Assembly: GCA_013178225.1 (NCBI GenBank)
Contig: JABLXE010000002.1
Coordinates: forward strand, 124,001 to 188,000
Source of the DNA: Methanotrichaceae archaeon
GTDB taxonomy: Archaea > Halobacteriota > Methanosarcinia > Methanotrichales > Methanotrichaceae
DNA length: 64,000 nucleotides
Direction of reading: 5' to 3'
The notes under the pieces were generated by a model. That model had not been told where the DNA came from. It searched no databases and saw only the letters and a list, made by a program, of their open reading frames with translations. Position numbers and translations under genes: made by a program. Below, one piece after another: positions 10,615-25,006 of this stretch. The first letter of the stretch is position 1; each line of letters opens with the position of its first letter.

Positions 10615-12510
10615 ATGGATGCCTATCACCTATTCCTGACACTATTGGTAATATACATCGCAGCACTGGCCGCGGTCGGCCTGGTATCTTCACGCCGCCA
10701 GAAGTCCGTCACCGATTTCTGGCTGGCCGGAAGAGAGCTTTCCGCAATCACGGTAGGATTTTCGGCCGCATCCTCCTGGATTACGGCCAGCGCTCTGCTG
10801 CTGGCCACCGGGCTGTTTCTATTGATCGGCATAGGATCTATCTGGTTGTGGGTCTTTCCCAATATCGCAGCCCTGATCATCCTGGCCGGCATCGCGGGCA
10901 GGATCAAGAACATCCCTGCTCTCACCCAGCCGGAGCTCATGGAGATCCGCTACGATCCCATCATCCGGGCGCCGGTGGCCGTGGCCGTCGCGATGATGAT
11001 GGTGCTCTTCTCCGTAGTTGATTTCATAGGATTCAAGCTGGTCCTGGGAACTTTCTTCGGAGTCCCCGCTCTGAATGCAATTCTCATCATGGCCGTATCT
11101 GTGGCGCTTTACGTCAGCATCGGTGGCTTTCGGGCTGTGGTCAGGACCGACATCATTCAGTATCTGCTTCTCGCAGGCCTTGCGGTCTTCGTCACCTCCC
11201 TGGTCCTCACGCGCTCTGCGGGGGAAGGATTTACGCTCATGGAGGCCGCGGCTCTGCGCGGCTCTGAATGGTGGGATCCGCTGGTAATGGGAGGCCTCCT
11301 GGGAGTACTGGTTTTTCAGATGGCGCTCCTTCCAGGCTGGGTCGCGGAACAGGACCCCTGGCAGAAGGTCTGGGCGGCGCGCGACGAGCGTTCTGCAAAA
11401 CGAGGCCTCATCCTGGGTGGCCTGCTGTTGGCGGCGGTTTATACCTGCTGTCTTCTGACCGCCCTTGGACTGAGCGTCATTTATCCGCCGCCTGCTGGTG
11501 AGGTTGAGGCTGAGATGCTGTACTTGCGCGTGATCAGCGAGAGCGTCTCGCCGCTGGTCCTGGCAGTTATCACCATAGGCTTTGCGGCTGCATCCATGTC
11601 CTGTGCGGACACCTTCGCCACCTCTGGCGCTTCCTGTATCTCGCGCGATCTGGTGCAGAGGCATCTGCTGCCCACCGCCACCATGAAGCAGATGATGATT
11701 GTCAACCGGATTCTGGTCGTGCTAATGATCGCGATCGCGGCCTTCATCGCCCTGAACGTGGAGAGCATCATGGATGCGGTGATCATAGCCACTGTTATCG
11801 GCACCACTTCCTACTTCTTCCCGATAATCGGCGGGCTCTACTGGAAGAGGGCCACTAAGTGGGGCGCGCTGGCCGCTCTGATCGTTGGAGGCGGAACGCA
11901 GATCCTGCTCATCGCTTACGAGCAGTTCTGGCTCAAGCAGTCCCTGGATACGATCTCGCCTTACCTGACCGAGCACGGGGTTCTGGTGGGCCTCACATTG
12001 AGCGCATTGTTCTTTGTGGGCGTGTCGCTGGCCACGCCGCGAACCGACAACCTTCGGCTGGCTCCGTTCTTTCCCGATATCGCGGCAAAGATCTTTTCCG
12101 GAGAGGTCCCGATCGTGAACAGGAACAGTTCGCGATATCACGCCATACTCAAGAGGATCGAAGGAAAGGTCACCGGAGAGCGGGCTCATCTCGACCTCAC
12201 GATCGATCTGCGGCCGGTTCGCGCCGATGGGGCTTCTATGCCCGAGCATCTGCCCTGGGACCAGTTCGTCGAGAAGATCAAGGGCCTGCACAATCTGTGG
12301 TACACGCCCACCGGAAGCCACATCGTCTACCGGCTTTCGCAGGCGGATATGCTGGCCTGCGTCAAGATGGTGCGCGGGGACGAAAGGCAGATCTGGCTCT
12401 CGGCCGAGCCCCGGCGGGAGCAGATGGAGCGCCAAAAAGACGAGCTGTACCTGGCCTTTGAAGAGATCGAAGGAGCGCTTCTGGATTTCGGGATGACGGC
12501 CCGCCTATGA
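10615..12510 (+). CDS. Sodium:solute symporter family protein with long C-terminal cytosolic extension
   Basis: A 631-residue integral membrane protein of the SSS (PutP/ActP) family. It has about 13 hydrophobic segments between residues 5 and 475, the early family motif DFWLAGRELSAITVGFSAASSWI near residue 34, and the mid-protein segment GFAAASMSCADTFATSGAS near 322 that corresponds to the sodium-site helix. About 150 residues after the last membrane segment (FFPDIAAKIF onward) are soluble; I do not recognise a domain in them. The substrate cannot be read from sequence; monocarboxylates such as acetate, proline or other solutes are all possible. The stop overlaps the start of the reductase gene in ATGA. 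Confidence 0.9.
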   Translation: MDAYHLFLTLLVIYIAALAAVGLVSSRRQKSVTDFWLAGRELSAITVGFSAASSWITASALLLATGLFLLIGIGSIWLWVFPNIAALIILAGIAGRIKNIPALTQPELMEIRYDPIIRAPVAVAVAMMMVLFSVVDFIGFKLVLGTFFGVPALNAILIMAVSVALYVSIGGFRAVVRTDIIQYLLLAGLAVFVTSLVLTRSAGEGFTLMEAAALRGSEWWDPLVMGGLLGVLVFQMALLPGWVAEQDPWQKVWAARDERSAKRGLILGGLLLAAVYTCCLLTALGLSVIYPPPAGEVEAEMLYLRVISESVSPLVLAVITIGFAAASMSCADTFATSGASCISRDLVQRHLLPTATMKQMMIVNRILVVLMIAIAAFIALNVESIMDAVIIATVIGTTSYFFPIIGGLYWKRATKWGALAALIVGGGTQILLIAYEQFWLKQSLDTISPYLTEHGVLVGLTLSALFFVGVSLATPRTDNLRLAPFFPDIAAKIFSGEVPIVNRNSSRYHAILKRIEGKVTGERAHLDLTIDLRPVRADGASMPEHLPWDQFVEKIKGLHNLWYTPTGSHIVYRLSQADMLACVKMVRGDERQIWLSAEPRREQMERQKDELYLAFEEIEGALLDFGMTARL

Positions 12511-13673
12511 GTGACAAGATCCAGGTGGCGGTGGTGGGCGCTGGGCCGGCCGGCTCCACGGCCGCGGAGGTGGCGGCACGATTGGGCGCAGAAGTGATGC
12601 TGATCGATGCAAAGGCCGAGATAGGCACGCCGGTGCAGTGCGGCGGCTTTCTTCCCGAGGCGCATGAGCTGAGGGCGCTCTTGCCTAAGGCAATGCTGCC
12701 TGCTGCATTGGCCGACGTTCCCGCGCGGTACGTTTTGCACAGAACAAAGATTCAGCGCCTCTATTCTCCTTCCGGCAGCTGCAAGGAGTTTGCCGTAGAC
12801 GGCCGGGTGATCGATCGCAGGGCCTTTGACCGGCATCTGGCTCATTTGGCGGCGCGTGCAGGGGCCAGAATCTGCCCCGCCACGCGAGCCCGGGCCGGGC
12901 TGGAATCAATCGAGCTTTCCGGGCATCTCAGGGGAGCGATCCGGCCGGAGGTGATAATCGCCGCAGACGGGCCTCATTCGGGATTTTCCCGCCTGATGGG
13001 TAACTCCGTTGGAGAGCGGGGGATCTGCCTGGAATACGAGATGGTCGATGTGGATATCGATTCTTCCGCGGCGGAGATGTATTTCGGCACCAGATATGCT
13101 CCCGGTGGCTATGCCTGGATCATTCCTCTGGGTCCGGACTCCGCCAATGTTGGAATAGGCGTGAGGGCTTCGTACCTGGGGCGGGAAAAGCTTCCTCAGA
13201 TCCTGGACCGCTTCATTTGGGACCATCCCATTGCGGGCGAGAAGTTGAAGCGAGGTGAGGTCCTGGCGGTGATGCGCGGGACTGTCCCGGCAGGCGGCAT
13301 GCCCGAGTCGATTCGTCAGGGAAACGTGCTTTTAGCAGGCGACTCTGCCGGGCAGGTCCTGGCCACCAGCGGGGGCGGCATCCCGCTGGCGATGGTTGCT
13401 GGAAGAGTTGCCGGAGAGACCGCGGCCGGGTTCCTGCAGGGCCGGGCATCTCTTGAAGAATATGAATTGAACATTGAACGCGAGTTTGGAGAAGAGCTGG
13501 GCCGCTCTGTGCATATTCGAAAGCTGGTCGACCTGGCCATGAAAAGCGACCGGATGATGGATGCCATATTCGCGGCCCTTCTGCCCGAGCACATGAAGAT
13601 GATAATGCGGGCGCAGCTTCCCGACGCTTTATGCCGAGTCCGTGACCTGATGCAGGGGTCACGGCTGCGCTAA
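12507..13673 (+). CDS. Geranylgeranyl reductase family flavoprotein (archaeal lipid saturation)
   Basis: A 388-residue FAD-dependent oxidoreductase. An N-terminal dinucleotide-binding motif (VGAGPAGSTAAEVAARLG, residues 10-27) is followed by the substrate-side Cys motif PVQCGGFLP and the FAD-binding block GNVLLAGDSAGQVLATSGGGI (about 272-292). Relatives saturate the isoprenoid chains of archaeal ether lipids or of quinone/chlorophyll side chains. The 4-bp overlap with the symporter gene indicates co-translation. Why a transporter and a lipid reductase are coupled is not evident. Other paralogues of this family are common in methanogens, so the exact substrate is uncertain. Confidence 0.9.
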   Translation: MSDKIQVAVVGAGPAGSTAAEVAARLGAEVMLIDAKAEIGTPVQCGGFLPEAHELRALLPKAMLPAALADVPARYVLHRTKIQRLYSPSGSCKEFAVDGRVIDRRAFDRHLAHLAARAGARICPATRARAGLESIELSGHLRGAIRPEVIIAADGPHSGFSRLMGNSVGERGICLEYEMVDVDIDSSAAEMYFGTRYAPGGYAWIIPLGPDSANVGIGVRASYLGREKLPQILDRFIWDHPIAGEKLKRGEVLAVMRGTVPAGGMPESIRQGNVLLAGDSAGQVLATSGGGIPLAMVAGRVAGETAAGFLQGRASLEEYELNIEREFGEELGRSVHIRKLVDLAMKSDRMMDAIFAALLPEHMKMIMRAQLPDALCRVRDLMQGSRLR

Positions 13674-13731
13674 CTTAGGGCCTGATAAAAATAGGGTCTG
13701 TTTGATGCGCGCCTAAGGCCTGCGGCATCCC

Positions 13732-14136
13732 TTACTTTTTCTTCTTCTCTTCCTTGGGTGCGCCGCCCAAGAGCTCTTCCAGAGGCTTGGATCCGGCTTC
13801 GACAACTTTAACGTTGATCTGTCCTACATCTGCCGAAACCTCGCGACCGTGAATGCTCTTGCGCTTCCTCCTGCCCTCTGCAGTGGGGTTATAGCCTGTG
13901 CCACCCGAAACAAGAATCGTTCTGCGTCTGGTTCCCGGAAGATCTGCACGCATGGGGAAGCCTTCGCGATCGCTCCCACCGGTGATTTGAACTGAGTATC
14001 CAGGAAGTCCCAGCACGTCCCCGTCTACTTTATCGCCTATGCGCCTTCCCAGGAATTTGGAAGCTCCCGGGTCCTTAAGCTCGGCCTGATATGCTTTTCC
14101 GCTACTGGGATCTGAGATGACCACTCTAAAATCCAT
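13732..14136 (-). CDS. rps6e: 30S ribosomal protein S6e
   Basis: A 134-residue archaeal ribosomal protein matching S6e: it opens with the beta-rich MDFRVVISDPSSGKAYQAE. The middle contains GRRIGDKVDGDVLGLPGYSVQITGGSD and GFPMRADLPGTRRR, and the C-terminus is a short basic KEEKKKK tail. It belongs to the small subunit. The minus-strand start has GAGGAAAGAAG in front of it, and an AT-rich element GGTTTTATAGG at about 14187-14197 is a likely TATA box. It is monocistronic here, convergent with the reductase gene and just downstream of the NrpR-like gene. Confidence 0.97.
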   Translation of the reverse strand: MDFRVVISDPSSGKAYQAELKDPGASKFLGRRIGDKVDGDVLGLPGYSVQITGGSDREGFPMRADLPGTRRRTILVSGGTGYNPTAEGRRKRKSIHGREVSADVGQINVKVVEAGSKPLEELLGGAPKEEKKKK

Positions 14137-14197
14137 CTTCTTTCCTCATTTATATGAACGCGATTCCTTTCTCTACAGAACATCGCCCTATAAAACC

Positions 14198-15196
14198 TTA
14201 TCCTGGTTGCAGCTCATCCATGACGCTGTAGTCCATGAGGGCGGATATGGGCAGGTTCTTGACCCTGATTCCCTGCTCTTCTGCGGCTACTGCTGCATTT
14301 ATGCCTGCGTAGAACGCGAGGGCGATCTTTCCTGAGCTTACCGGACAGCCCAGGAGCGGCTCGCCGGGCCCGCTAATCCCAATCAAGCCACCTAGCTCAG
14401 CCTCGCGTGCAAGTTTTAGGAGTTCGATTGCCCGGTCTCCGGCGGCCGTCGGTATCTCTCTCACGTTGGCCAGAACTCTTCCCCGGCCGGTTATTACGGC
14501 ATCGAAGGCGCGGGTCATTCTTCGCGCCATAAATACTTTCATGGGATCCAGAGAGGAGCCGCTGTAGGCGATCAGATCGGTGAACTCCTGAGGAGCACGG
14601 TCGCGGATTTCAACTATCCCCGCATAGCTGGTGTTCACAGGAATGCCCCTTTTCATGAGCATGCCATCGATGGTGATGCTGCATATGGTGACTATTCCCA
14701 GGCATCCGTTCGGGATCTGAAAGGATGAAATCTCAGAACCCTCGTCAAAGATACGCACCCTCTTGCTAACGGTATAGCCCGCGTCAAAGACCGAAGATAG
14801 TATCCGCGAGACTTTTTCGAAGTCTGCTTTGTGAATGATGCTGGCATTGACCACTACTTCGCCGGCGCGGCGCTCGAGGTCGAGGCCGGTCCTATACATG
14901 TATTCCTCTATCCTGGTGTTCACAAATCCGATCCTGTCGTCCACCAGGGCATCGCTCAGCTCCCGCATCCCCAGCGTTGTCAGAACCCGCCCGCTGTAGC
15001 CCTCCTTTCGGGTGAAGCCCAGCTCGTCCAGGATCTTGAGGTTATATCGCACTGCCCGCTCGCCAAGCTCGTATCCGCGATTGCACAGGCAGTCAGATAT
15101 GGCCCGGGCTCCTACCGGCTTGTCGGACTCCTCGATCACTCGCAAGATCTCAACCAGCCTGCGCTGACTTGTGTGGGTCTTGGTGAGAAGCTTCAT
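14198..15196 (-). CDS. nrpR: NrpR-like transcriptional regulator (winged helix plus DUF128)
   Basis: A 332-residue regulator. Residues about 8-75 form a winged-helix domain (LVEILRVIEESDKPVGARAI, ELGERAVRYNLKILDELGF). The remainder is one DUF128 effector domain (NASIIHKADFEKVSRIL; GIPVNTSYAGIVEI). NrpR proteins repress nitrogen-assimilation genes in methanogens and release DNA when 2-oxoglutarate binds. A helix-turn-helix with a single DUF128 copy resembles the NrpRI partner of two-protein systems. I chose the ATG at 15196 because GGAGGGGGAAAGGAG lies directly before it; an ATG at 15223 would add nine residues without such a site. No nitrogen-fixation genes are nearby, so its target is inferred. 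Confidence 0.88.
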   Translation of the reverse strand: MKLLTKTHTSQRRLVEILRVIEESDKPVGARAISDCLCNRGYELGERAVRYNLKILDELGFTRKEGYSGRVLTTLGMRELSDALVDDRIGFVNTRIEEYMYRTGLDLERRAGEVVVNASIIHKADFEKVSRILSSVFDAGYTVSKRVRIFDEGSEISSFQIPNGCLGIVTICSITIDGMLMKRGIPVNTSYAGIVEIRDRAPQEFTDLIAYSGSSLDPMKVFMARRMTRAFDAVITGRGRVLANVREIPTAAGDRAIELLKLAREAELGGLIGISGPGEPLLGCPVSSGKIALAFYAGINAAVAAEEQGIRVKNLPISALMDYSVMDELQPG

Positions 15197-15277
15197 CTCC
15201 TTTCCCCCTCCGAAAAAGGCCATATATATCTTATGCGGATACCATGCCCCTTGGGATTTTCATCCCTGGAAGGTCAC

Positions 15278-15350
15278 AGTCCCGTGGGGTAGTGGTCAAT
15301 CCTGAAGGCCTTTGGAGCCTGCGACGGTGGTTCGAATCCGCCCGGGACTA
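15278..15350 (+). tRNA. tRNA-Gln (anticodon TTG)
   Basis: 73 nt folding as a cloverleaf. The acceptor AGTCCCG pairs with CGGGACT and the discriminator is A. The anticodon loop is CTTTGGA, giving TTG. The T arm is built on GGTTCGAATCC. The first pair A1-U72 is the identity feature by which archaeal GatDE picks tRNA-Gln for amidation, which supports Gln rather than Glu. There is one A-G mismatch at the top of the anticodon stem. CCA is not encoded. Confidence 0.93.
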
Positions 15351-15505
15351 TTCGTCCTCTTCCCAGAGGAAATGTACATATATACGATCAGGCGTTATGC
15401 AGAGGGCGCGGAGGATGGAAGATGCCTCCGCCGGTCCATCATCGAGGTGATGCGGGGGCCCTTGCGAATGGTTTCGCAGATTTGATGAAAAGACCCCAAT
15501 AAAAT

Positions 15506-15580
15506 GCTCCGGTAGTGTAGTCCGGTCAATCATTCCGGCCTTTCGAGCCGAAGACCCGGGTTCAAATCCCGGCCGGAGCA
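15506..15580 (+). tRNA. tRNA-Glu (anticodon TTC)
   Basis: 75 nt cloverleaf. The acceptor GCTCCGG pairs with CCGGAGC and the discriminator is A. The anticodon loop CTTTCGA gives TTC. The T arm is CCCGGGTTCAAATCCCGG with a strong stem. G1-C72 separates it from the neighbouring tRNA-Gln. CCA is not encoded. The 155 bp between the two tRNA genes has no recognisable gene. Confidence 0.95.
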
Positions 15581-15846
15581 TCAAAATCCTTAAGCAGTTT
15601 TCGCGATTTAATCCAGAGTTCACCGCTGCTATGGGGATGAAATTAGATCCTAATGCATTCAAAATAATATTCTGCAGTCATGCTAACGCTATTTTAGGGC
15701 TTGTGCAACCATCGGTTGATCAAGGATATTTTGGGAAACTCGGGGGCTCAGATCCCTCTGCTTGAAGCGCGATCACGGCTCATACTCCTTATCCTTTAAA
15801 GGATTGTGGCGCTCCGAAATATCCGTTTTTGCCCAGGATTGCTCGA
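15581..15846. other. Intergenic segment before the sheath-like cluster
   Basis: About 265 bp between tRNA-Glu and the promoter of the first sheath-like gene. It contains no open frame with a ribosome-binding site. A short inverted pair around 15791-15805 (CCTTATCCTTTAAAGGATTG) could act as a terminator or operator. I see nothing else that can be named. Confidence 0.4.
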
Positions 15847-16106
15847 TAAATTTATATTCCAGCAAGCTTTAGCTTCACGTTGTGCCTGAGCAAAAAACTC
15901 AAATATCAGCCGATAATCATGAGATCAGGTACCTCACACTGATGAGGGACAAATCGGCAATTCATCCGGTCGCTATGCCTGTCTGGCAGCGGCGTCCGTT
16001 GATTTTGCGATCCTCAGAGTGTGGAGCTACATGGGATCGAAAAGGCGCAGATTTATGCGGCTCACGATCCCGGAACTGAGGGTAATAATTAGGAGGTGGG
16101 AACGAA
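15847..16106 (+). promoter_or_regulatory. Promoter and long structured 5' leader of sheath-like gene 1
   Basis: The TATA box TAAATTTATATT lies at 15847-15858. Thirty-one bases after its TTTATAT core the sequence GTGCCTGAG (15882) begins a segment also found before gene 2 at the same spacing. The leader is about 225 nt. Its first 60 nt can fold as a CCTGA/TCAGG stem enclosing a GAG-7nt-CTC hairpin. It ends in a strong ribosome-binding site, TTAGGAGGTGGG, before the ATG at 16107. Confidence 0.55.
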
Positions 16107-16847
16107 ATGCGAAAGGAAATAGCTGTTTTGGTTATCATCGCCATGGCCCTGATAGGCATGGCCGGCGCAGCCAACTACATGTATGAGAAGGCGTCGGTTA
16201 AGGGCGTTGGATACAAGAACGTAGAGATGATCATTTCGACCCAGTACGGCTTCTCTGGAGCCAAGCTGGTGGAGAAGGAGTCCGGATCCGGTAACGTGAT
16301 CACCGAGAGGACCGAGCTCGAGGCCGAGAGGCAGGTCAACCACGAAATGACCGACTGCCTCTATAACGGAACATGCGACTGGCCGACTGGCACCTGCTGC
16401 ATGGACTACATCAACTTCACCAAGGAAGCTGAGTTCGAGTACATGCCCGTCTCTTACCAGACCGGCACCTACGACCAGAAGTGGGTTGAGAAGCTGTGCG
16501 TGCAGAACTACAAGATCGGCGCCGTGTTGACCGAGATGTACACTCACGCTGAGCACCTGCAGAAGACCACCGAGGTCAAGACCAGGCTCTACGCAGATGA
16601 TGATTGCTACGCCGCTTGCTGTACCGGTGTTCTCGAAGCCAACCTGAACAGCAACGTGATCGGTGTCGCTCACATCGGCTGGCTCTCCAGGGATCCCCTG
16701 GCCGAGAAGAACCTGAAGGGACGCCACGCTGAGTACGGCAGATCCGTCGAGGACCTGACCGGTGTCTTCTCCATCGAGAAGTTCATCCAGCTGTGGGGCA
16801 ACTCCACCTGTGGCGCTATCAGCGTTGACTGGCTGCCCTGTATTTAA
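16107..16847 (+). CDS. Exported sheath-like surface protein, copy 1
   Basis: A 246-residue exported protein. Residues 1-21 are a signal peptide (hydrophobic VLVIIAMALIGMAGA, cleavage after GAA or nearby). The mature part is beta-rich by composition, with eleven Cys residues, several in pairs (CCMDY, CCTGV). It has a Gly-x-Gly pattern near the start (KGVGYKNVEM, SGSGNVI) and a closing block with GRHAEYGRSVEDLTGVFSIEKF. There is no membrane anchor or sorting tail. It is nearly identical to copy 2 and clearly related to the gene at 20537. A strong ribosome-binding site and long leader suggest high expression. Methanothrix filaments are encased in a protein sheath; this family is a plausible component, but I infer that from context. 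Confidence 0.85.
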   Translation: MRKEIAVLVIIAMALIGMAGAANYMYEKASVKGVGYKNVEMIISTQYGFSGAKLVEKESGSGNVITERTELEAERQVNHEMTDCLYNGTCDWPTGTCCMDYINFTKEAEFEYMPVSYQTGTYDQKWVEKLCVQNYKIGAVLTEMYTHAEHLQKTTEVKTRLYADDDCYAACCTGVLEANLNSNVIGVAHIGWLSRDPLAEKNLKGRHAEYGRSVEDLTGVFSIEKFIQLWGNSTCGAISVDWLPCI

Positions 16848-16858
16848 ATTGAGCAAAT

Positions 16859-16918
16859 AGTAGATATAAACCGGTAAAGCTCCAGGCTCATGTCTGGGGC
16901 TGATATCTATCTTTTTTC
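16859..16918 (+). terminator. Terminator hairpin after sheath-like gene 1
   Basis: Nested inverted repeats TAGATAT/ATATCTA and AGCTCCAG/CTGGGGCT are followed by TCTTTTTT. It begins 12 bp after the stop codon, so gene 1 is probably transcribed on its own. Confidence 0.7.
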
Positions 16919-17130
16919 GCGAGTTTAAAAAATTTAAAGCTGGCATTCCGCCAAACGCATAACCGGGTCATTTTCGTTTAAAAATAACTCTTGTATTAAT
17001 ATTATGGTAATTATGTAAAAAAATGGCACCGGGAAGTCAAATACATCCAAAAAGCTTATAAACTGTGGATGTGCATAGCTAAAACTCATATGCGTTCACA
17101 AAAGAGCACCAACCGGCATTATGCATACTC
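16919..17130. other. AT-rich spacer between sheath-like genes 1 and 2
   Basis: About 210 bp of low-GC sequence (for example TTAATATTATGGTAATTATG) with no open frame supported by a ribosome-binding site. It separates the terminator of gene 1 from the promoter of gene 2. The gene 1 and 2 coding regions are near identical but this spacer shows no repeat of flanking sequence. Confidence 0.4.
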
Positions 17131-17133
17131 GAT

Positions 17134-17421
17134 AGATTTATATGTCATTAATCCAATGGAGATGGATGTGCCTGAGAGACATGCTCAAATATCTGATGCA
17201 AACCACATCATCAGGCGCCTCACACCGGAGAGGGTGGCATACGATCTTTTCGGCTGTCGCAGTCAAGCGCGGCCGAGCCTAGCAGTTTCATCTTTTCTGG
17301 TGGAACGCGCCCAGGCCTTCAGCCTGGGATGCAGCTATCCGGCCGGGGTGATGTACTAAGGATCATAAATGCCGCATAAAGTGGCTTTTCAGATCCTAGA
17401 GTATGAGGAGGTGGGAACGAA
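17134..17421 (+). promoter_or_regulatory. Promoter and long structured 5' leader of sheath-like gene 2
   Basis: The TATA core GATTTATATG lies at 17135-17144, and GTGCCTGAG starts at 17168, exactly 31 bases after the TTTATAT core as in gene 1. The first 60 nt preserve the CCTGA/TCAGG stem, a GAG-7nt-CTC hairpin with a different loop, and CCTCACAC. The downstream part of the leader differs from gene 1 and contains the hairpin CCAGGCCTTCAGCCTGG (about 17309-17326). It ends in GAGGAGGTGGG before the ATG at 17422. Confidence 0.55.
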
Positions 17422-18162
17422 ATGAGAAAGGAACTGACTGTTTTGGTAATTATTGCCATGGCCCTGATAGGCATGGCCGGCGCAGCCAACTACATGTACG
17501 AGAAGGCGTCGGTCAAGGGCGTTGGATACAAGAACGTAGAGATGATCATTTCGACCCAGTACGGCTTCTCTGGAGCCAAGCTGGTGGAGAAGGAGTCCGG
17601 ATCCGGTAACGTGATCACCGAGAGGACCGAGCTCGAGGCCGAGAGGCAGGTCAACCACGAAATGACCGACTGCCTCTATAACGGAACATGCGACTGGCCG
17701 ACTGGCACCTGCTGCATGGACTACATCAACTTCACCAAGGAAGCTGAGTTCGAGTACATGCCCGTCTCTTACCAGACCGGCACCTACGACCAGAAGTGGG
17801 TTGAGAAGCTGTGCGTGCAGAACTACAAGATCGGCGCCGTGTTGACCGAGATGTACACTCACGCTGAGCACCTGCAGAAGACCACCGAGGTCAAGACCAG
17901 GCTCTACGCAGATGATGATTGCTACGCCGCTTGCTGTACCGGTGTTCTCGAAGCCAACCTGAACAGCAACGTGATCGGTGTCGCTCACATCGGCTGGCTC
18001 TCCAGGGATCCCCTGGCCGAGAAGAACCTGAAGGGACGCCACGCTGAGTACGGCAGATCCGTCGAGGACCTGACCGGTGTCTTCTCCATCGAGAAGTTCA
18101 TCCAGCTGTGGGGCAACTCCACCTGTGGCGCTATCAGCGTTGACTGGCTGCCCTGTATTTAA
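17422..18162 (+). CDS. Exported sheath-like surface protein, copy 2
   Basis: 246 residues, differing from copy 1 only at residues 5-6 of the signal peptide (MRKELTVLV instead of MRKEIAVLV). From about base 17518 to the stop codon the DNA appears identical to copy 1. Identity stops at the stop codon, while the ribosome-binding site AGGAGGTGGGAACGAA is shared. That pattern fits recent duplication or gene conversion of the coding region. The mature protein, Cys pairs and C-terminal block are as in copy 1. It may be the first gene of a run with the two related exported proteins that follow, although a hairpin separates them. Confidence 0.85.
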   Translation: MRKELTVLVIIAMALIGMAGAANYMYEKASVKGVGYKNVEMIISTQYGFSGAKLVEKESGSGNVITERTELEAERQVNHEMTDCLYNGTCDWPTGTCCMDYINFTKEAEFEYMPVSYQTGTYDQKWVEKLCVQNYKIGAVLTEMYTHAEHLQKTTEVKTRLYADDDCYAACCTGVLEANLNSNVIGVAHIGWLSRDPLAEKNLKGRHAEYGRSVEDLTGVFSIEKFIQLWGNSTCGAISVDWLPCI

Positions 18163-18170
18163 ATAAAGAA

Positions 18171-18230
18171 CTTGAAAGGCTCGGAGTTTTTCCGAAGCCT
18201 TTTATCCACCTTTTTGGTGGGAAGGGATAA
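18171..18230 (+). terminator. Hairpins between sheath-like gene 2 and the next exported protein
   Basis: AAAGGCTCGGA with TCCGAAGCCTTTT forms a hairpin ending in a T-run, followed closely by a second stem TCCACC/GGTGGGA. The first resembles a terminator; since no clear TATA box follows, partial read-through into the next gene is possible. Confidence 0.5.
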
Positions 18231-18273
18231 TTTCACAATTGTAGTAGCATGAAAATAGGGGGTGAATAGAACT

Positions 18274-19074
18274 ATGAAGGGAGTAGCACTAGCAGCGATA
18301 TTGTTAGTTGCTTTTATGCTCGGATGCTGCGGAATCGTTGTGGCGAATCCACCGATTGTGCCGCCCGTGCAATATGAACAGTTCTGCGAAGCACAGAAGA
18401 TATCCGGAACCGGAGTAATCGATGTCAGCACATCGATCGTTGACAAGAAGATTGCGCTTGAGTATTACAACGTAATGTCAGGTGACGGTGATATCGAGCT
18501 GGATCAGGAGAATGCATACTCGCAGAATGCAGACAAGCTCAAGAGGAACGTAACCGGTGTAAATGGCAGTGACAAGGTCGGCTTGAATCTGTTCGAGAGC
18601 ACCAAGCTCACTTATTCCGGAGCGACGCCCTTGGTTGGCGGAAAATACCTGCATTCCAAGGAGTTCTACGGCGGCATCGGAGCAGAGATCCAGGAGATGT
18701 TCGCGGTAAATGAGATGGAGAAGGAGCAGACCTCGTTCTTCACATCAACCACGCCGTTCGAGCAGATCTACGGCATTGCGCCCGAGGATCTCGGAAAGGC
18801 CCTGAATTGTGCCGGCCGGAACACCGATATGGTTGACGGGCTTATGAGGACCAGCGAGGGAGTCTATATTCCGACACACGTGATCGGGCTGGACACCAAG
18901 AACTCCTTCAACGGAACCTGGGGAACCGACGCGACCTGGCACAAGATATTCTACAAGGACATCAAGGCCCACGAGATGTTCACTGGAAAATTCGAGGCAG
19001 AGAAGCTCTTGAAGTTCCACGAATATCCCGTACCCGAGAAAGAGCGGCAACCGTGTGAAGGCATAGACTGCTAG
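18274..19074 (+). CDS. Exported sheath-family protein, divergent member
   Basis: About 266 residues with an N-terminal signal segment (GVALAAILLVAFMLGCCGIVVA) that includes a Cys pair at the cleavage region. The mature protein shows the same order of blocks as the 246-residue family. It has ISGTGVIDVSTS and SGDGDIELDQE near the start, YGGIGAEIQEMFAV in the middle, and NSFNGTW followed by KAHEMFTGKFEAEKLLKF at the end. Overall identity is low, so this reads as shared fold rather than close homology. I prefer the ATG at 18274, with GGGGGTGA eight bases before it, over the GTG at 18262. There is no anchor or sorting tail. Likely a minor component of the same surface structure. Confidence 0.75.
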   Translation: MKGVALAAILLVAFMLGCCGIVVANPPIVPPVQYEQFCEAQKISGTGVIDVSTSIVDKKIALEYYNVMSGDGDIELDQENAYSQNADKLKRNVTGVNGSDKVGLNLFESTKLTYSGATPLVGGKYLHSKEFYGGIGAEIQEMFAVNEMEKEQTSFFTSTTPFEQIYGIAPEDLGKALNCAGRNTDMVDGLMRTSEGVYIPTHVIGLDTKNSFNGTWGTDATWHKIFYKDIKAHEMFTGKFEAEKLLKFHEYPVPEKERQPCEGIDC

Positions 19075-19112
19075 GGACCACAAAGTCCCCAGCAACCTAT
19101 TTTCTTTTTTTT
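19074..19112 (+). terminator. Terminator hairpin with T-run
   Basis: GGGAC-CACAAA-GTCCC directly after the stop codon, then ATTTTCTTTTTTTT. The next gene starts 18 bp further on, so this may act as an attenuator between the two. Confidence 0.65.
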
Positions 19113-19129
19113 ATATGGGGGGTTGAATC

Positions 19130-20287
19130 GTGAAAGAAGCAATATTTGTGTTAATTCTGCTGGTATCCTGTGCCACAGCCACGGTGGAAGATCCGGGAGG
19201 CGGATCGAGCACAACTGCCTCCAGCGTGTGGAGCGCACAATCAATTCCCGCTCTGCCAAGTGCTTCTGCCATCACCTGTCCTTCAGCATCAGGATTTCTC
19301 AAAGTGGATATTGGGCTGTCCGGACCCAGCTCCGAGGCAGACAAAGAATACGTAACTCAAGGAAAGACGCTGGAGTTCATCGTCACCGTTAAGAACCTAG
19401 GGCAGTCGGATGCGGATGTGGAGCTGGGGGTCTCTACGGACAACTTCTCGCCGGCATGGCTGAGCTGGACCTCCGAGAGCATGACCATTCCGGCAGGTTC
19501 CACCCGTACCTGTACCTTACAAGTAAATCCCGATATCGACGCGTCTCCTGGAGAGTACAATTTCAACGTGGACGCATCCGCTAAATGCTATCGATCGGGG
19601 TCCGCTGGGGCATCCTTCGTGGTTCAGGATTTCGACTATGCGTCAGAGACCGTTGTGAGCGGAACCGGCCAGTTCCAGATCAACAAGAATGTGCGTTCCA
19701 TGAACTCCGGCATCAAGTCCACCAAAGATGTGTTCTTCAGTGGAAGCGTTGATGCCCTGGTGAAAAACGAGTACCTGGTCGATCAATCCAGGGGGAGAAA
19801 TCCCAACTTCGAAGAGCAGGACGCAGTCGACAATTACCAGGCATTGAGTGCGGGAGATGCCCTGACCGGAACTGAGGAGTTCAGAAGTTCTCGGGTCTTT
19901 GGAGGAGTCGGGGCCAAATTCCTGGAGAGCTACAACGTTCAGCAGGTGGAGTTCAAGAACCAGAATCTAAATCTGCATCAGACCGGCTCCCTGAGCAAGT
20001 CTGCCGAGTTCAACACGGCGAACAACTTCACTGGCTACTACCTGATAGACGCCAAGCAGACGATTCCCGGACAGAAGAACTTGAAAGAGCGCGAGGAGTA
20101 CCTAGGGTCCTTTGAGGTAAACCGCAGGATTCTCTTCCGAGATACACCTGAACCTCAGACCTTCTGTTTTGATGGCGATTGCAGCAAGAAGGCCGCTTTA
20201 CCCAAGACTCTATTTACCAGCCCGTGTGTGAGCAGCTCCTGCAGCAACTTCGTGAATAACCTGAACGCCTTCTCCAGTTCGGTCTAA
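19130..20287 (+). CDS. Exported protein with CARDB-like domain fused to a sheath-family domain
   Basis: 385 residues starting at GTG, with GGGGGTTGA in front. A signal peptide (about residues 1-18) and a Ser-rich stretch lead to an Ig-like domain at about 60-160 (FIVTVKNLGQSDADVEL, TIPAGSTRTCTLQV), of the CARDB/surface-adhesion type. From about 170 the protein follows the sheath-family block order: VSGTGQFQINKNV, FSGSVDALVKNEY, FGGVGAKFLESYNVQQVEF, FNTANNFTGYYL and LKEREEYLGSFEVNRRILF. It ends with a Cys-containing, Ser-rich tail and no anchor. It may connect the sheath-like subunits to another layer; that is inference from the added domain. Confidence 0.75.
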   Translation: MKEAIFVLILLVSCATATVEDPGGGSSTTASSVWSAQSIPALPSASAITCPSASGFLKVDIGLSGPSSEADKEYVTQGKTLEFIVTVKNLGQSDADVELGVSTDNFSPAWLSWTSESMTIPAGSTRTCTLQVNPDIDASPGEYNFNVDASAKCYRSGSAGASFVVQDFDYASETVVSGTGQFQINKNVRSMNSGIKSTKDVFFSGSVDALVKNEYLVDQSRGRNPNFEEQDAVDNYQALSAGDALTGTEEFRSSRVFGGVGAKFLESYNVQQVEFKNQNLNLHQTGSLSKSAEFNTANNFTGYYLIDAKQTIPGQKNLKEREEYLGSFEVNRRILFRDTPEPQTFCFDGDCSKKAALPKTLFTSPCVSSSCSNFVNNLNAFSSSV

Positions 20288-20312
20288 ACTCTTTTTAATT
20301 TTTTTTGTTTTC
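20285..20312 (+). terminator. T-rich terminator
   Basis: CTAAACTCTTTTTAATTTTTTTTGTTTT immediately after the stop codon of the CARDB-containing gene. Archaeal RNA polymerase can terminate at T-runs without a hairpin. Confidence 0.55.
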
Positions 20313-20343
20313 ATCTGCAATTTTAAAAAGATTTAGACCTCTC

Positions 20344-20536
20344 TTGCATATAAATAGCCTCCAAAACCTTGAAATAGCATCCACCCAACCAGGTACCTCG
20401 GGTGTTAGGGTTTAAAGGAGAGAAGGTTCAGCCTGGTCCTCTAGCGGTCAAGTCGAGGAATGTCTCGAACTGCGATCGATCGCTTGAAGGAATTCGCCCT
20501 GAAACGGCGTGTCAGGCTACAAGGAGGTAGTGTGGA
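20344..20536 (+). promoter_or_regulatory. Promoter and structured, partly tRNA-like 5' leader of sheath-like gene 3
   Basis: The TATA box CATATAAATAG lies at 20347-20357. The leader of about 155 nt contains CAGGTACCTC, as in gene 1. From 20430 to 20518 AGCCTGG pairs with TCAGGCT (one G-T pair). Inside is a tRNA D-arm-like CTCTAGCGGTCAAGTCGAG, and CGCC-7nt-GGCG follows near the 3' side. The anticodon region does not fit a functional tRNA. The ribosome-binding site AAGGAGG is at 20521-20527. Confidence 0.5.
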
Positions 20537-21277
20537 TTGAATCGAAATTTGATCGTCCTTGGAATTCTCGTGGTTCTACTGGTGGGTGTAGCCGGTGCTG
20601 CCAATTACATGTACGAGAAGTCCTCGGTCAAAGGAGTCGGCTACAGGAACCTGGAGATGGTGGTCTCCACCCAGTACGGCTATTCCGGAGCTAAGCTCGT
20701 GGAAAAGCAGTCCGGTTCCGGTAACGTGATATCGTCGAGGATCGAACTCGAGGCCGAGAGGCAGCTATCGCACGATATGAGCGGATGTCTCTATCCGGAT
20801 TGCTCAGCGGCCTACCCGACCGGTGGGTACTGCATGGACTACATCAACTTCACGTCCGAACAAGAGCTGGAGTACATGCCCGTATCGTATCAGACCGGCA
20901 CCTACGACCAGAAGTGGGTTGACAAGCTGTGCGTGCAGAACTACAGGATCGGCGCTGTGCTGACCGAGATGTACACTCATGCCGAGCACCTGCAGAAGAC
21001 CACCGAGGTCAAGACCAGGTTATACGGTACTGAAACTGAAACCCCATGCTGTACAGGTGTGCTGGAGGCCAACCTGAACGCCAATGTGATCGGTGTCGCT
21101 CACATCGGCTGGCTGTCCAGGGACCCGGTTGGGGAATCCAATTTGAAGGGCCGGCACGCTGAGTACGGCAGGTCTATCGAGGACCTGACTGGAGTCTTCT
21201 CCATTGAGAAGTTCATCCAGCTGTGGGGCAATTCCACCTGCGGCTCAGTGAGCGTTGACTGGCTGCCGTGCCTCTAA
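20537..21277 (+). CDS. Exported sheath-like surface protein, copy 3
   Basis: 246 residues starting at TTG, ten bases after a strong AAGGAGG. Over most of its length it is about 80 percent identical to copies 1 and 2. Differences cluster in the signal peptide, in the loop YPDCSAAYPTGGYC, and at TETETPC, where copies 1 and 2 have DDDCYAAC. The pair CCTGV, the segment VSYQTGTYDQKWV and the closing GRHAEYGRSIEDLTGVFSIEKF are unchanged. Silent substitutions are numerous here but absent between copies 1 and 2. The TTG start and different leader suggest separate regulation. Confidence 0.84.
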   Translation: MNRNLIVLGILVVLLVGVAGAANYMYEKSSVKGVGYRNLEMVVSTQYGYSGAKLVEKQSGSGNVISSRIELEAERQLSHDMSGCLYPDCSAAYPTGGYCMDYINFTSEQELEYMPVSYQTGTYDQKWVDKLCVQNYRIGAVLTEMYTHAEHLQKTTEVKTRLYGTETETPCCTGVLEANLNANVIGVAHIGWLSRDPVGESNLKGRHAEYGRSIEDLTGVFSIEKFIQLWGNSTCGSVSVDWLPCL

Positions 21278-21298
21278 ATAAAAAGGTCTAATCCATCA

Positions 21299-21333
21299 TA
21301 GATCAAGCGCCAATGCTTGATCTACTCTTTTTA
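21299..21333 (+). terminator. Terminator hairpin after sheath-like gene 3
   Basis: A perfect 10-bp stem TAGATCAAGC / GCTTGATCTA with a 6-nt loop, followed by CTCTTTTTA. It closes the surface-protein cluster. Confidence 0.8.
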
Positions 21334-21472
21334 TCGAAAGCGTCAAGCCGCGAGCGGCCAGTGCTGCTGATCTGATCTTCTGTTGCTAAAATCATATCTC
21401 TCTCTAAAAATTAGACCGGAACCTAGAAGTACCTTGATCGTACAATTATAATGATTGATGAGGTGAAAGGTC

Positions 21473-21703
21473 GTGCAGGCCAAGATCTTGAGGAAGGGAG
21501 AGGGCATAACGGGAAGATACAGGAACATGGAGCTGGGCCAGAGCAAGAAGTTCTTCCGGGTATGGATAGACGATCAGGAGATCTACCTTCCCAAGTCGGT
21601 GGGAGACTCGCTCCTGAAGAGCCATCAGAAGGGAAACGATGTATTCACCATTCTACGCACTGAGGACGTCTACGAGATCAAGCCGGTTATGGAGGCGAGA
21701 TAG
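21473..21703 (+). CDS. Small conserved-looking protein of unknown function
   Basis: 76 residues from a GTG with GAGGTGAAAGG in front. The sequence is charged and soluble: it opens with a basic MQAKILRKGEGITGRYR, has FFRVWIDDQEIYLPKSVG in the middle and ends with EDVYEIKPV. The composition and alternating hydrophobic pattern fit a small beta-barrel, but I do not recognise the family. It is transcribed alone, 195 bp after the last sheath-like gene. Coding is supported by the ribosome-binding site and normal codon use; function is unknown. Confidence 0.6.
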   Translation: MQAKILRKGEGITGRYRNMELGQSKKFFRVWIDDQEIYLPKSVGDSLLKSHQKGNDVFTILRTEDVYEIKPVMEAR

Positions 21704-21983
21704 CCAGAGAAGAATCCTCTCGCTATCTATCCCGTCACCTGGTCTGCCATTTTTTGCGCAATCTTTAAAATCGGATTTAGCCGCCCCAATTAGCTGAAAG
21801 CTCCGAAGAAAGGGCGAAAGGGCCTGACACTGATCTCGGCATTGATCCGGCATCGACCTGTCAGGAGGTTCATCCGGGCATTCATCTCAGCAATGGACCA
21901 AGGCCGGCGGTCAACTGATCTTGCAGCCTGCCCTGCCCGCGCAAGGTCCTAATCTCTTCCGTTCCCGCGATTGCTTTCGGTTT
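21704..21983. other. Intergenic segment without recognisable genes
   Basis: 280 bp between two convergent genes. No open frame has a ribosome-binding site, and I see no tRNA, repeat or clear terminator. Confidence 0.4.
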
Positions 21984-22532
21984 TTAGAGGGCTCGTCCCG
22001 CAGATCGCGCCTTTTCCAGGAGGTCTTTTCTCTCCAACACGGCGTTTGGCGCACCGCCACTTGCCATGCGAACGATCTCGGTGACCTCGAATCCCAGGAA
22101 CTTGAGTATTTCGGCAAACTCATTGGCAGCTCTCTCAAACATTGGAAGATCGGGATTCCCCTGGCTGGTGACGATTACAGCCTTCTTTCCGGGCGGCAGA
22201 CGGGACTTGAATCCCGTATCGATCAGCGAGTACATCCTGTCCATCATGAGGTCAAACTGCCCGGTGAAGCGGTGGAAGTATATCGGCGATCCAAATACGA
22301 CCGCATCGGCCTCTGCGATATCTTTCAGCAGATTTGTGACGTCATCTTCCAGCCGGCAGCTCTCATGGCTCTTGCAGTAGCCGCAGGCCTGGCAGCCCTG
22401 GTACTTCATCTCGTTGAGATAGTACTTCTTGGTCTGATAGCCTGCCTCTTTTGCCCCGTCCAGTACGGCTTGAACCAGAGTATCTACATTGCCGTTCTTT
22501 CTCGGACTTCCCACGATTCCTATTGCTTTCAT
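21984..22532 (-). CDS. isf: Iron-sulfur flavoprotein (NADPH-dependent FMN reductase fold)
   Basis: 182 residues of the flavodoxin-like fold. The N-terminus GIVGSPRKNGNVDTLV binds the FMN phosphate. The compact Cys motif CQACGYCKSHESC (about residues 47-59; spacing C-x2-C-x2-C-x5-C) is the 4Fe-4S site that defines methanogen iron-sulfur flavoproteins. FGSPIYFHRFTGQ follows as the flavin-contact loop. Isf proteins accept electrons from ferredoxin and reduce oxygen or peroxide, so a role in oxidative-stress defence is likely. It is monocistronic, next to tRNA-Ser on the same strand. Confidence 0.93.
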   Translation of the reverse strand: MKAIGIVGSPRKNGNVDTLVQAVLDGAKEAGYQTKKYYLNEMKYQGCQACGYCKSHESCRLEDDVTNLLKDIAEADAVVFGSPIYFHRFTGQFDLMMDRMYSLIDTGFKSRLPPGKKAVIVTSQGNPDLPMFERAANEFAEILKFLGFEVTEIVRMASGGAPNAVLERKDLLEKARSAGRAL

Positions 22533-22674
22533 GGCTGTTCACGCCTTTAATGGACATGATGCAGTTGGTCTCATTTGAGGATTTCGAGCGGCACAAGCGA
22601 AGCCCTAGGACCCTTAAGTTTCCGGCAGAAAGAACCCTTAAGGTTAGAATTGAGTGCAGTTGAACGCAAGAAAG

Positions 22675-22759
22675 CGCCGAGGGTGGGATTCGAACCCACG
22701 AGTCCCGAGGGGACACAGGTTTAGCAAACCTGCGCCTTACCAGGCTAGGCTACCTCGAC
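22675..22759 (-). tRNA. tRNA-Ser (anticodon GCT)
   Basis: 85 nt class II tRNA on the minus strand. The acceptor GTCGAGG pairs with CCTCGGC (one T-G pair) and the discriminator is G. The anticodon stem-loop is CAGGTTTGCTAAACCTG, with GCT in a seven-base loop. It has a long variable arm (TCCCCTCGGGA) and the T arm GTGGGTTCGAATCCCAC. The long variable arm and G73 are serine identity features. CCA is not encoded. Confidence 0.96.
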
Positions 22760-22819
22760 ATCAGCTCATAGGGCTTGATTTTTCGATATTTAAACTCTGC
22801 GGCAAAAAGATCTCTGTCA

Positions 22820-23200
22820 TCACTCGACACATTGTAGCAGATCCTTGCTGGTGACGATTCCCACCAGCATTCCGTTTTCCATCACCGGAAGCCTTCTGAT
22901 CTTGTGCTTAATCATCAGCCCTGCAGCCTCTTTGGTGGAGGCATTGAGGCCGATGGTGATCAGCGGTGCTGGCGTCATTATATCGACAACGCTCAGGCGG
23001 GAGGGGTCTTTGCCCTCGGCAAACACCCGGGAGAAGATCTGGCTCATTGTCAGTATGCCCTTACACTCCTTGAGCAGGCCGTCTGTGGCCACCAGCACGC
23101 AGCCCTTTTTTCCCCGCGCCATCAGCCTTATGGCCTCAAGCACCGTGGTTTCAGGCGGCACTGTAGCTATGGGATAGCTCATCACGTCCCTGACCTTCAT
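22820..23200 (-). CDS. CBS-domain pair protein
   Basis: 126 residues consisting of two CBS motifs and nothing else: MKVRDVMSYPIATVPPETTV opens the first, VVDIMTPAPLITIGLNAST the second, and it closes with RRLPVMENGMLVGIVTSKDLL. Such modules bind adenine nucleotides or S-adenosylmethionine and regulate partners. The ATG at 23200 is chosen because it begins the first CBS repeat; the frame extends 58 codons further upstream but that part does not look like protein. The partner is unknown; the adjacent gene upstream is pheT on the same strand, about 180 bp away. Confidence 0.9.
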   Translation of the reverse strand: MKVRDVMSYPIATVPPETTVLEAIRLMARGKKGCVLVATDGLLKECKGILTMSQIFSRVFAEGKDPSRLSVVDIMTPAPLITIGLNASTKEAAGLMIKHKIRRLPVMENGMLVGIVTSKDLLQCVE

Positions 23201-23380
23201 GAGTACTACTAGCAGACTTCTTGACGTATTACACTTTGGATCTTTTCTCCCAAAAAAAGGGTGCTCATAGGGGGTTAATTGGGCGTGCAAATTGGGTGGT
23301 GAAGAGGCGGCGCAAAATAGCGAAGGTCCTGGGAGATGGAGATCCCGGCCCCTTCGCGGATTCGCGGGCGCCATGTCAAA

Positions 23381-25006
23381 TTAGAGCTGTCCCCACTGGA
23401 TCTCCAGGGCTACCGCCGGCTGCTCCAGCCCAAAGCTCCTCAGGACCAGAGGATGAAGCTCCCCAAAGCAGCCCTTCTTCTGCCCGTTCTCAAGTATGTC
23501 CGCGCCCCTTCCCGGCAGGAAGGCTCCGTCTTCTGAGGGCACGATCTTTATCTCCTCCTGCCAGCCCATCTCCTGCAAGACTACGTCTGCCAGCGACCTG
23601 ATCAGAGAGAAGCCGGCCGCGCTGTGAATGGAGGCCGCAGCCAGGTTCATGTGCGTTCTTCCCTTCTGCACCACATCTCCCACCGAGAAGATCCTCTGCG
23701 GAAGCGGGTGATGCTGGTTGAGGGAGAATATCTCCAGAAGGCTTGAGAGAAGCGAGGTTCGGAGGATGGTGTGAAGCTCGCTTATGGGGTGCAGAACCCT
23801 CGTTGACGCCTCGGGCTTTCGCCTCATGTTGTGGAAATGAGCCGTCTCGTTGGTGAGGGTGAAGGGCATGGTCTCCAGGTATCCGAGCCCTGCCATCAGC
23901 TCGCGAATCTCGGCCTTTTTGACCTCGGAGGGATGGGACTTTCCGACCGTCACCGTCTTCGGAAGCTCTTCTTGCAGGTTTTCGTATCCGTATCCCTTGG
24001 CGGCATCCTCGAAGATGTCCCAGGAATGCATGATGTCCGCCCGGAAGGCCGGAACCAGGACCTCGACCCGGTCCCCGCCGGCCGGCCGGGCACCAAATCG
24101 CATCCGCTCCAGGCATTGCGCTAGGCCCTCAGCATCCAGATCAAAGCCGATCAGGTCGTTGGCCTCTTTTGCAGCGATGGTCCAGCGAGCAGGCTCCAGG
24201 TTGGGTGTGGCCAGGTCGCCCTCGCTTCTCTTCACCAGCACCGACTCGATCCGGCCGCCGCGCTCGGCAAGTGACGTGACCACGATGTTCAGGGCCTTGA
24301 AGACCGCTGGGTCCGTTCCCGTGACATCGATGAACAGGTCGCTGGAATCCTCCTCGACGCGGGTCAGCTCACCGTTGATGATCGGCGGAAAAGACAGCAC
24401 CCGGTCCTGGGAATCTACGATTAGCGGATACCGGTCGCAGCCCTGCAGGATATGGCCGTAATCCTTTCCCTTGGGGTGCTTTTTCAGCATCTCGGCCATG
24501 GTCATCTCCTCGGAAAAGTCCAGGGGGACGAACGAGCAGCCGGGGTCCGCTCCGAAGTAGCGGAACGGAGGCGTCACCCGCGATATGTCGTGAACGCCTA
24601 TCGCCACCTTCCGCCGGTTCCGGCCCAGTCCCCAGTGCAGGTCCTCCTGCAGTCCCATCAGCGACTCGATGGACTCGCTGGAGAACTCTAGCCCCCGCAC
24701 CACCGCACAGCCGATCAGCGGCCGCACAGCCTTCACCGACTCATCAACCTGCAGGACGATCGGGCCCTGCTCGACGGTGTACTGCGGCAACCCCGGCTTG
24801 ATGTCCAGAAAGCCCCGCAGCGCTCTGGCCACTCCCTCCGGGCTGTAGAGATCCGGCCGGTCGGGGAAGAACTCCACGTCCACGTGGTCCTCCTCCGCCC
24901 TCTTTCCGATGTCGGCACCCATCATGGCCAGGCGGCTCATGATCGTGTCCCGGGAGGCTCCTACCATCTCCTCCATATCCTGGTAATAAAGTCTGACAAC
25001 AGGCAT
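23381..25006 (-). CDS. pheT: Phenylalanyl-tRNA synthetase beta subunit
   Basis: 541 residues, the usual length for archaeal PheT. It opens with MPVVRLYYQDMEEMVG, contains the B3/4 editing region and B5 domain (VGKSHPSEVKKAEIRELMAG near the B5/catalytic-like junction), and ends in the catalytic-like domain with LNQHHPLPQRIFSVGDVV. The start at 25006 lies five bases after the pheS stop codon; a longer frame to 25048 would overlap pheS. The two subunits form the alpha2-beta2 enzyme that charges tRNA-Phe and hydrolyses misacylated Tyr-tRNA. The tight spacing shows an operon. Confidence 0.96.
   Translation of the reverse strand: MPVVRLYYQDMEEMVGASRDTIMSRLAMMGADIGKRAEEDHVDVEFFPDRPDLYSPEGVARALRGFLDIKPGLPQYTVEQGPIVLQVDESVKAVRPLIGCAVVRGLEFSSESIESLMGLQEDLHWGLGRNRRKVAIGVHDISRVTPPFRYFGADPGCSFVPLDFSEEMTMAEMLKKHPKGKDYGHILQGCDRYPLIVDSQDRVLSFPPIINGELTRVEEDSSDLFIDVTGTDPAVFKALNIVVTSLAERGGRIESVLVKRSEGDLATPNLEPARWTIAAKEANDLIGFDLDAEGLAQCLERMRFGARPAGGDRVEVLVPAFRADIMHSWDIFEDAAKGYGYENLQEELPKTVTVGKSHPSEVKKAEIRELMAGLGYLETMPFTLTNETAHFHNMRRKPEASTRVLHPISELHTILRTSLLSSLLEIFSLNQHHPLPQRIFSVGDVVQKGRTHMNLAAASIHSAAGFSLIRSLADVVLQEMGWQEEIKIVPSEDGAFLPGRGADILENGQKKGCFGELHPLVLRSFGLEQPAVALEIQWGQL

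Follow-up and report, generated by a model that had tools for sequence, protein, structure and literature searches.

What do five neighbouring genes for exported proteins build in a Methanotrichaceae archaeon, and why are two of them almost the same? The genes lie on the forward strand of a stretch of 64,000 nucleotides, here called the window (assembly GCA_013178225.1, contig JABLXE010000002.1, positions 124,001 to 188,000). Three encode proteins of 246 residues, which we name family A: A1 (16107-16847), A2 (17422-18162) and A3 (20537-21277, with a TTG start). Between A2 and A3 stand B (18274-19074, 266 residues counted from its ATG) and C (19130-20287, 385 residues, with a GTG start). An original prediction, made from the letters of the DNA, had located five open reading frames of these sizes, and both the frames and the motifs it quoted are found in the translations. 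All five translations begin with a hydrophobic N terminus, as read by eye; A1 and A2 are 99% identical as proteins, and A3 is 77 to 78% identical to them. We conclude with high confidence that this is the main sheath locus, encoding exported SH (sheath) proteins with six-arch cores, in which an old duplication of A has been homogenised by gene conversion and the copies have position-specific leaders.

The identity of the proteins comes from Methanothrix thermoacetophila PT. In the text accessible to us, Medvedeva et al. (2024; PMC11576556) report that, among the SH proteins of this strain, Mthe_0668 and Mthe_0667 are transcribed most, and PMC10470525 lists Mthe_0677 as a surface layer (S-layer) duplication protein and Mthe_1069 as MspA. 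In G016, the genome with the PT locus, the orthologs of A, B and C are adjacent and in line, with identities of 82%, 59% and 54%, and the ninth protein gene beyond A encodes an S-layer duplication protein (TIGR01567, expect value E of 4e-110). Because this gene corresponds to Mthe_0677 and lies nine genes beyond A, synteny, identity and gene counting identify A, at the level of sequence, as Mthe_0668 and B as Mthe_0667. By adjacency C is probably Mthe_0666, a tag not named as SH in the accessible text of PMC11576556. A ribosomal S6e gene and a geranylgeranyl-reductase-type gene flank the cluster in both genomes; with a regulator-like gene they occupy 12507-15223 of the window, and all three adjoin the cluster in G016 as well. 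The size and clustering of the genes agree with the SH family, whose members have 150 to 350 residues when free of immunoglobulin domains and more when they carry them (246, 246, 266 and 246 residues without an immunoglobulin [Ig] domain, and 385 in C with an Ig-like domain). Orthology and synteny with a locus of named SH proteins thus bear out the sheath reading of the original prediction, and the five genes very probably encode sheath building blocks of Methanothrix filaments. The sheath idea itself is already published, and published work explains the cluster in substance; what we add is the evidence from leaders and gene conversion.

Do the five proteins share one fold? The original prediction had described a single block order for A, B and the second half of C. 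By sequence this holds for B and the second half of C, which are homologous (hhalign probability 98%, E 1.6e-13), and in a home-made profile test none of 200 block-shuffled nulls reached their score. It does not hold by sequence for A: hhalign gave A 3 to 9% against B or C with the first alignments and 3% and 0.4% with deeper ones, its local profile score was reached by 13 of 200 shuffles against B and by 85 of 200 against C, and the global scores were no better than those of shuffles. The tie of A to B and C is one of predicted fold, not of sequence. The AlphaFold models of A (predicted local distance difference test score, pLDDT, 80.5; predicted template modelling score, pTM, 0.77) and of C (pLDDT 83.3, pTM 0.70), compared by segment order, each contain six long strand segments, which follow one another in matching succession. 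In A these cover mature residues 3-23 (briefly interrupted), 31-53, 78-113 (broken), 118-141, 153-178 and 186-209; in the core of C they cover 153-173, 178-199, 210-236 (broken), 245-266, 274-293 and 301-320, with a short strand (140-149) before them. The G-x-G blocks lie 7 to 8 residues into the first and second segments in A and C alike, and a short motif opens the fourth segment (IGAVLTEMY in A, IGAEIQEMF in B and VGAKFLESY in C). The shared order thus reappears between A and C in the models, and the structure prediction that had been proposed as a check gave, for A and C, models that do not conflict with one shared core. The register proposed for the final block is off in one detail: HAEY of A lies about ten residues before G-V-F, and HEMFTGKF of B matches VEDLTGVF of A instead.

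PMC10593813, in the text accessible to us, describes the SH monomer of Methanospirillum hungatei as six beta-arches over two sheets; about 450 subunits make up a ring, and cysteines link the rings. The six predicted segments of A and C may well be the six beta-arches (12 strands in two sheets) of this protein. A1 has ten cysteines, seven of which fall within its two variable loops, as taken from the alignment. The N-terminal domain of C (mature residues ~38-151) matches solved CARDB/Ig domains with Z ~11 and a root mean square deviation (rmsd) of ~2-3 over ~100 residues; its Pfam scores are below the curated cut-offs (14.4 versus 22.7 bits for CARDB and 16.5 versus 24.4 bits for NPCBM_assoc), and NPCBM_assoc matches 18 of the 37 family C members at E<=0.01. 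The structure-library matches of the C model reflect this domain, and the SH core of C is thereby barely probed. For the A model no good match turned up among solved structures (best Z 6.0, rmsd 9.2), and no viral model matched at E<=0.001. Sequence searches of solved structures, for which A1 and the A and B profiles served as queries, returned nothing significant.

Why, then, are A1 and A2 almost the same? Their coding DNA is 98.8% identical: nine of 741 nucleotides differ, all within the first 93, and from reading-frame nucleotide 94 to the stop the two are identical. The identity starts 16 nucleotides before the start codon, continues with the nine scattered changes up to nucleotide 93 and stops at the stop codon; the leaders in front of the two genes are only 56% alike. 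We compared trees of leaders and coding sequences from four genomes (that of the window, G015, G011 and G001), each of which has a position-1 A and one or two A copies of position-2 type before B. In the leader tree the position-2 leaders form one clade (support 98/98) apart from the position-1 leaders, and grouping the leaders by genome is rejected by the approximately unbiased test (p of 8e-8, 1e-6 and 7e-44 for the window pair, the G011 pair and the G015 trio). In the coding tree the copies cluster by genome (support 99-100), and forcing the position-2 copies together is rejected (p 1e-7). Differences at fourfold sites within a genome are 0 to 2% (window, G011, and copies 1 and 2 of G015) and up to 9% (G001, and copy 3 of G015), and between the four genomes they are 27 to 46%.

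A second genus, g10 (G009, G014 and G023), gives a similar picture. Grouping its coding copies by position is rejected (p 2e-5); the copies pair strongly within two genomes, the pairing in the third being without support, and by eye the upstream regions of the first copies are alike across all three genomes. These regions are a third conserved upstream type (L079:7459-7658, L080:12279-12478 and L083:6008-6207), which does not match the covariance model R1 of the leaders described below. An assembly artefact is unlikely, because G014 and G015 consist of two contigs each. That the two trees disagree in this way speaks for an old tandem duplication that has been converted repeatedly, and not for a recent duplication; old copies kept uniform by conversion are the simplest account of it. 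In the open-licence PMC literature we found no report of sheath-gene leaders or of gene conversion, and the text of PMC11576556, supplements aside, does not contain the term "gene conversion"; that neighbouring copies are made identical while each keeps a long conserved start region looks new.

Two types of leader precede the A genes. Class I leaders lie before A1 (15882-16106, position-1 type; R1 score 61 bits) and A2 (17168-17421, position-2 type; 53.5 bits), behind TATA-like boxes at 15851-15857 and 17137-17143. All 18 class I leaders examined open with GTGCCTGA, 22 to 24 nucleotides past a TTTATAT box, which is the spacing expected for an archaeal transcript start. In the A1 leader, GTGCCTGA and TCAGGTAC form the arms at the 5' end, and the Shine-Dalgarno sequence GGAGGTGGG precedes the ATG. 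R1, built from the first 56 nucleotides of 17 class I sequences, matches at 44 sites spread over 34 of the 50 family genomes, with two sites in the window's own genome; among the 30 matches with fetched flanks, 27 precede a family A gene, and in three the contig ends first. No R1 match stands before the remaining A genes of the window's genome, as fetched (L150-L157). A phylum sample of 196 genomes gave matches in 10, nine of them from the family; the match outside it (G213) spans the start of an unrelated gene and was set aside as chance.

The class II leader precedes the A gene that follows C. Its motif, GGGTGYTAGGGT...GGAGAG, stands at 20400-20422 upstream of A3, and the remainder (20423-20536) holds AGCCTG/CAGGCT arms and the A3 Shine-Dalgarno sequence. 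The motif occurs once per genome in 17 of the 50 family genomes (a reversed-pattern control gave 0), and in 17/17 cases it stands before an A gene, 142 to 203 nucleotides ahead of the mature start. Neither leader type matches Rfam: in 13000-23500 of the window only transfer RNAs (tRNAs) reach the gathering score, and two tRNA genes lie upstream of the cluster.

How does our reading fare against its rivals? The five proteins could be exported surface proteins of another kind, S-layer proteins or adhesins. We infer their place in the sheath from orthology and predicted folds; C carries an Ig/CARDB-like domain and has weak similarity to a putative S-layer model; and MspA (Mthe_1069), the sole PT protein reported from sheath mass spectrometry, is a different protein, unrelated to A and C. 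Such an identity is nonetheless most improbable, given the orthology to the most transcribed SH genes, the separate TIGR01567-type S-layer gene nearby in PT, a strand pattern that fits the published SH core, and a whole-genome search in which A turned up throughout the window's family (25 of 25 genomes) but not outside it (0 of 16). We are just as reluctant to take the near-identical A neighbours for recent duplicates instead of old copies under conversion. This is how PMC11576556, in its accessible text, reads the near-identity of neighbouring SH copies; coding sequences within a genome are indeed nearly identical, and positions 2 and 3 of G015, with leaders 96% alike, do resemble a recent duplication. 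A recent duplication, however, would have carried or replaced the leaders and so predicts grouping by genome, whereas the leaders group by position; the second genus, with first-copy upstream regions alike across genomes and coding pairs within them, and the sharp ends of the A1/A2 identity near the start and at the stop codon speak against it too. We return to the old duplication under conversion as our preferred account. Weighing against our reading as a whole, besides the unrelated MspA and the inferred localisation, are the lack of detectable sequence homology of A to B or C, a fold likeness drawn from the A and C models with B joined by sequence, the poor support (42) for position-1 leaders as a group of their own, the long branch of the G001 position-2 leader, and the 16 of 50 family genomes in which R1 finds no match.

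The nature of the conserved leader starts is more evenly contested. That they are DNA signals, regulator sites or promoter elements, and not functional RNA structures is a real possibility to which we give somewhat less than an even chance. The class I arms are almost invariant, and an inverted repeat directly after the inferred start could be an operator. The 8-pair class I stem shows no covariation beyond shuffles among 29 distinct rows, a further point against us, and because of this it may be a DNA signal. RNA structure is favoured by the two class I leaders of the window, which fold better than dinucleotide shuffles (z of -3.0 for A1 and -4.2 for A2), and by a compensatory change in one class I leader, the single one found. 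In class II the arms next to the Shine-Dalgarno sequence change together weakly, with slightly better pairing between matched arms than between mismatched ones (p ~0.02); minimum-energy folds often prefer other pairings than these arms, and the class II leader in the window has no advantage over shuffles in folding (z 0.3). Base pairing in the leaders is plausible. That they are new cis-regulatory RNAs of sheath growth, by which sheath demand is sensed at the mRNA level and one subunit is put under separate signals, is a bolder idea that we regard as rather unlikely. If it were true, class I and class II leaders would start at fixed promoters, stand almost only before sheath subunit genes and have been distinct by position since the genera arose, and the separate signals could be steady wall growth, hoop insertion at division and repair.

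What is the place of MspA? The original prediction had suggested a comparison with the reported major sheath protein of Methanothrix. A 575-residue, exported-looking protein of 60.9 kDa at 1,154,521-1,156,248 of G016 fits MspA, whose reported mass is 60.9 kDa (PMC6242892, in its accessible text). Single comparisons showed no similarity to A or C (best BLASTP E 0.27 for A1 and 0.54 for C). MspA occurs in 2 of 50 family genomes and has no homolog in the window's own genome, and we rejected it as the sheath protein of this archaeon.

Beyond the window, whole-genome searches with B and with C gave matches in 19 of 19 family genomes and in 0 of 12 others, the C matches in G001, G006 and G008 being weak and confined to the core. 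The C profile matches 40 of 50 family genomes at E<=1e-40, and the A profile, run on a phylum sample of 344 genomes, matches 18, of which 12 are from the same family and six from two other families. Gene order was examined in 20 relative loci (L071-L090). In 18 of them C comes after B on the same strand, with an extra B-like gene between the two in L081; of the other two, L075 breaks off behind B at the contig end, and L089 contains only A. In 12 of the 20 loci an A gene stands upstream of B. Five have a contig edge close to B, L089 has no B, and L085 and L090, both of genus g5, have several kilobases upstream of B-C with no A there. A further A follows C in the window and in L072, L076, L077 and L078. 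The B-C unit can duplicate as a block, since L077:297-6271 (G002) reads B C B C A, and in L080:8069-9185 (G014) the C gene falls into two frames that overlap, perhaps through a frameshift. In the window's own genome, an open frame of 1136 codons (L158:4502-7909) has B/C-like core similarity and is perhaps a sheath adhesin as described in 2024.

Relatives of the cluster also occur farther afield. Three contigs of ANME-1 (anaerobic methanotrophic archaea; Methanophagales) carry a C relative and, after 125 to 230 nucleotides, an A relative, in window-like order (L131:3584-5281, L132:9868-11676 and L133:10453-12232). Sixteen viral contigs (L134-L149) carry family A at 63 to 77% identity, near full length in 15 of the 16. 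Family A in viruses is expected, because PMC11576556, in its accessible text, already reports SH-like proteins from viruses that infect sheathed archaea. A pattern scan, which reaches only relatives keeping the patterns, detected neither B nor C in the viral contigs, and the R1 leader is present in 0 of the 16 loci; these absences are a small addition to published work. Terminator-like stem-loops follow A2 (18181-18195) and A3 (21299-21324) on the forward strand, and such sites are no commoner than in shuffles.

We propose the following model. A1, A2, A3, B and C would be exported as SH proteins, each built around six long, kinked strand segments, and the G-x-G blocks would be the glycine kinks of the first two arches. 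By analogy with Methanospirillum, monomers would join side by side into rings, rings would stack into hoops, and cysteines of the variable loops would lock the layers. Family A would probably supply the main subunit, with B as its partner, and the extra Ig/CARDB-like domain of C would face outward. Gene conversion would keep the A coding sequences near-identical, each position retaining its own promoter and a leader of 150 to 280 nucleotides, so that genes under separate control most likely provide the cell with one and the same polymer subunit.

Few archaeal cell walls are as resistant as sheaths, and we know of no account of how their synthesis is controlled. The two leader types offer concrete, testable handles on sheath gene regulation, and the cluster provides an exact gene list for sheath proteomics and structure work. 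The conflict between leaders and coding sequences argues against the published view of neighbouring SH copies as young. It also suggests that selection has favoured polymer subunits that stay identical while their control regions differ.

How does the locus compare with known systems? The SH proteins of Methanotrichales, Methanomicrobiales and ANME-1 in PMC11576556 include the orthologs of A and B, and likewise have clustered genes, near-identical neighbours, variable caps and an Ig-bearing member like C; the accessible text of that paper differs in having no leaders or gene conversion, in taking duplications as recent and in leaving the third gene (C) unnamed. The SH/MspA protein of M. hungatei (WP_011449234.1), known here from its description in the accessible text of PMC10593813 and PMC6242892, is similarly exported, with a six beta-arch core and cysteines available for cross-links; unlike the proteins of the window, it is 377 residues long with a helical cap, and reportedly its gene does not belong to an operon. 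MspA of M. thermoacetophila (Mthe_1069, 60.9 kDa), though reported from Methanothrix sheaths, resembles neither A nor C. In structure, the N-terminal domain of C is like CARDB/NEW3-type Ig-like domains (Z ~11), with the window protein scoring under the Pfam cut-offs.

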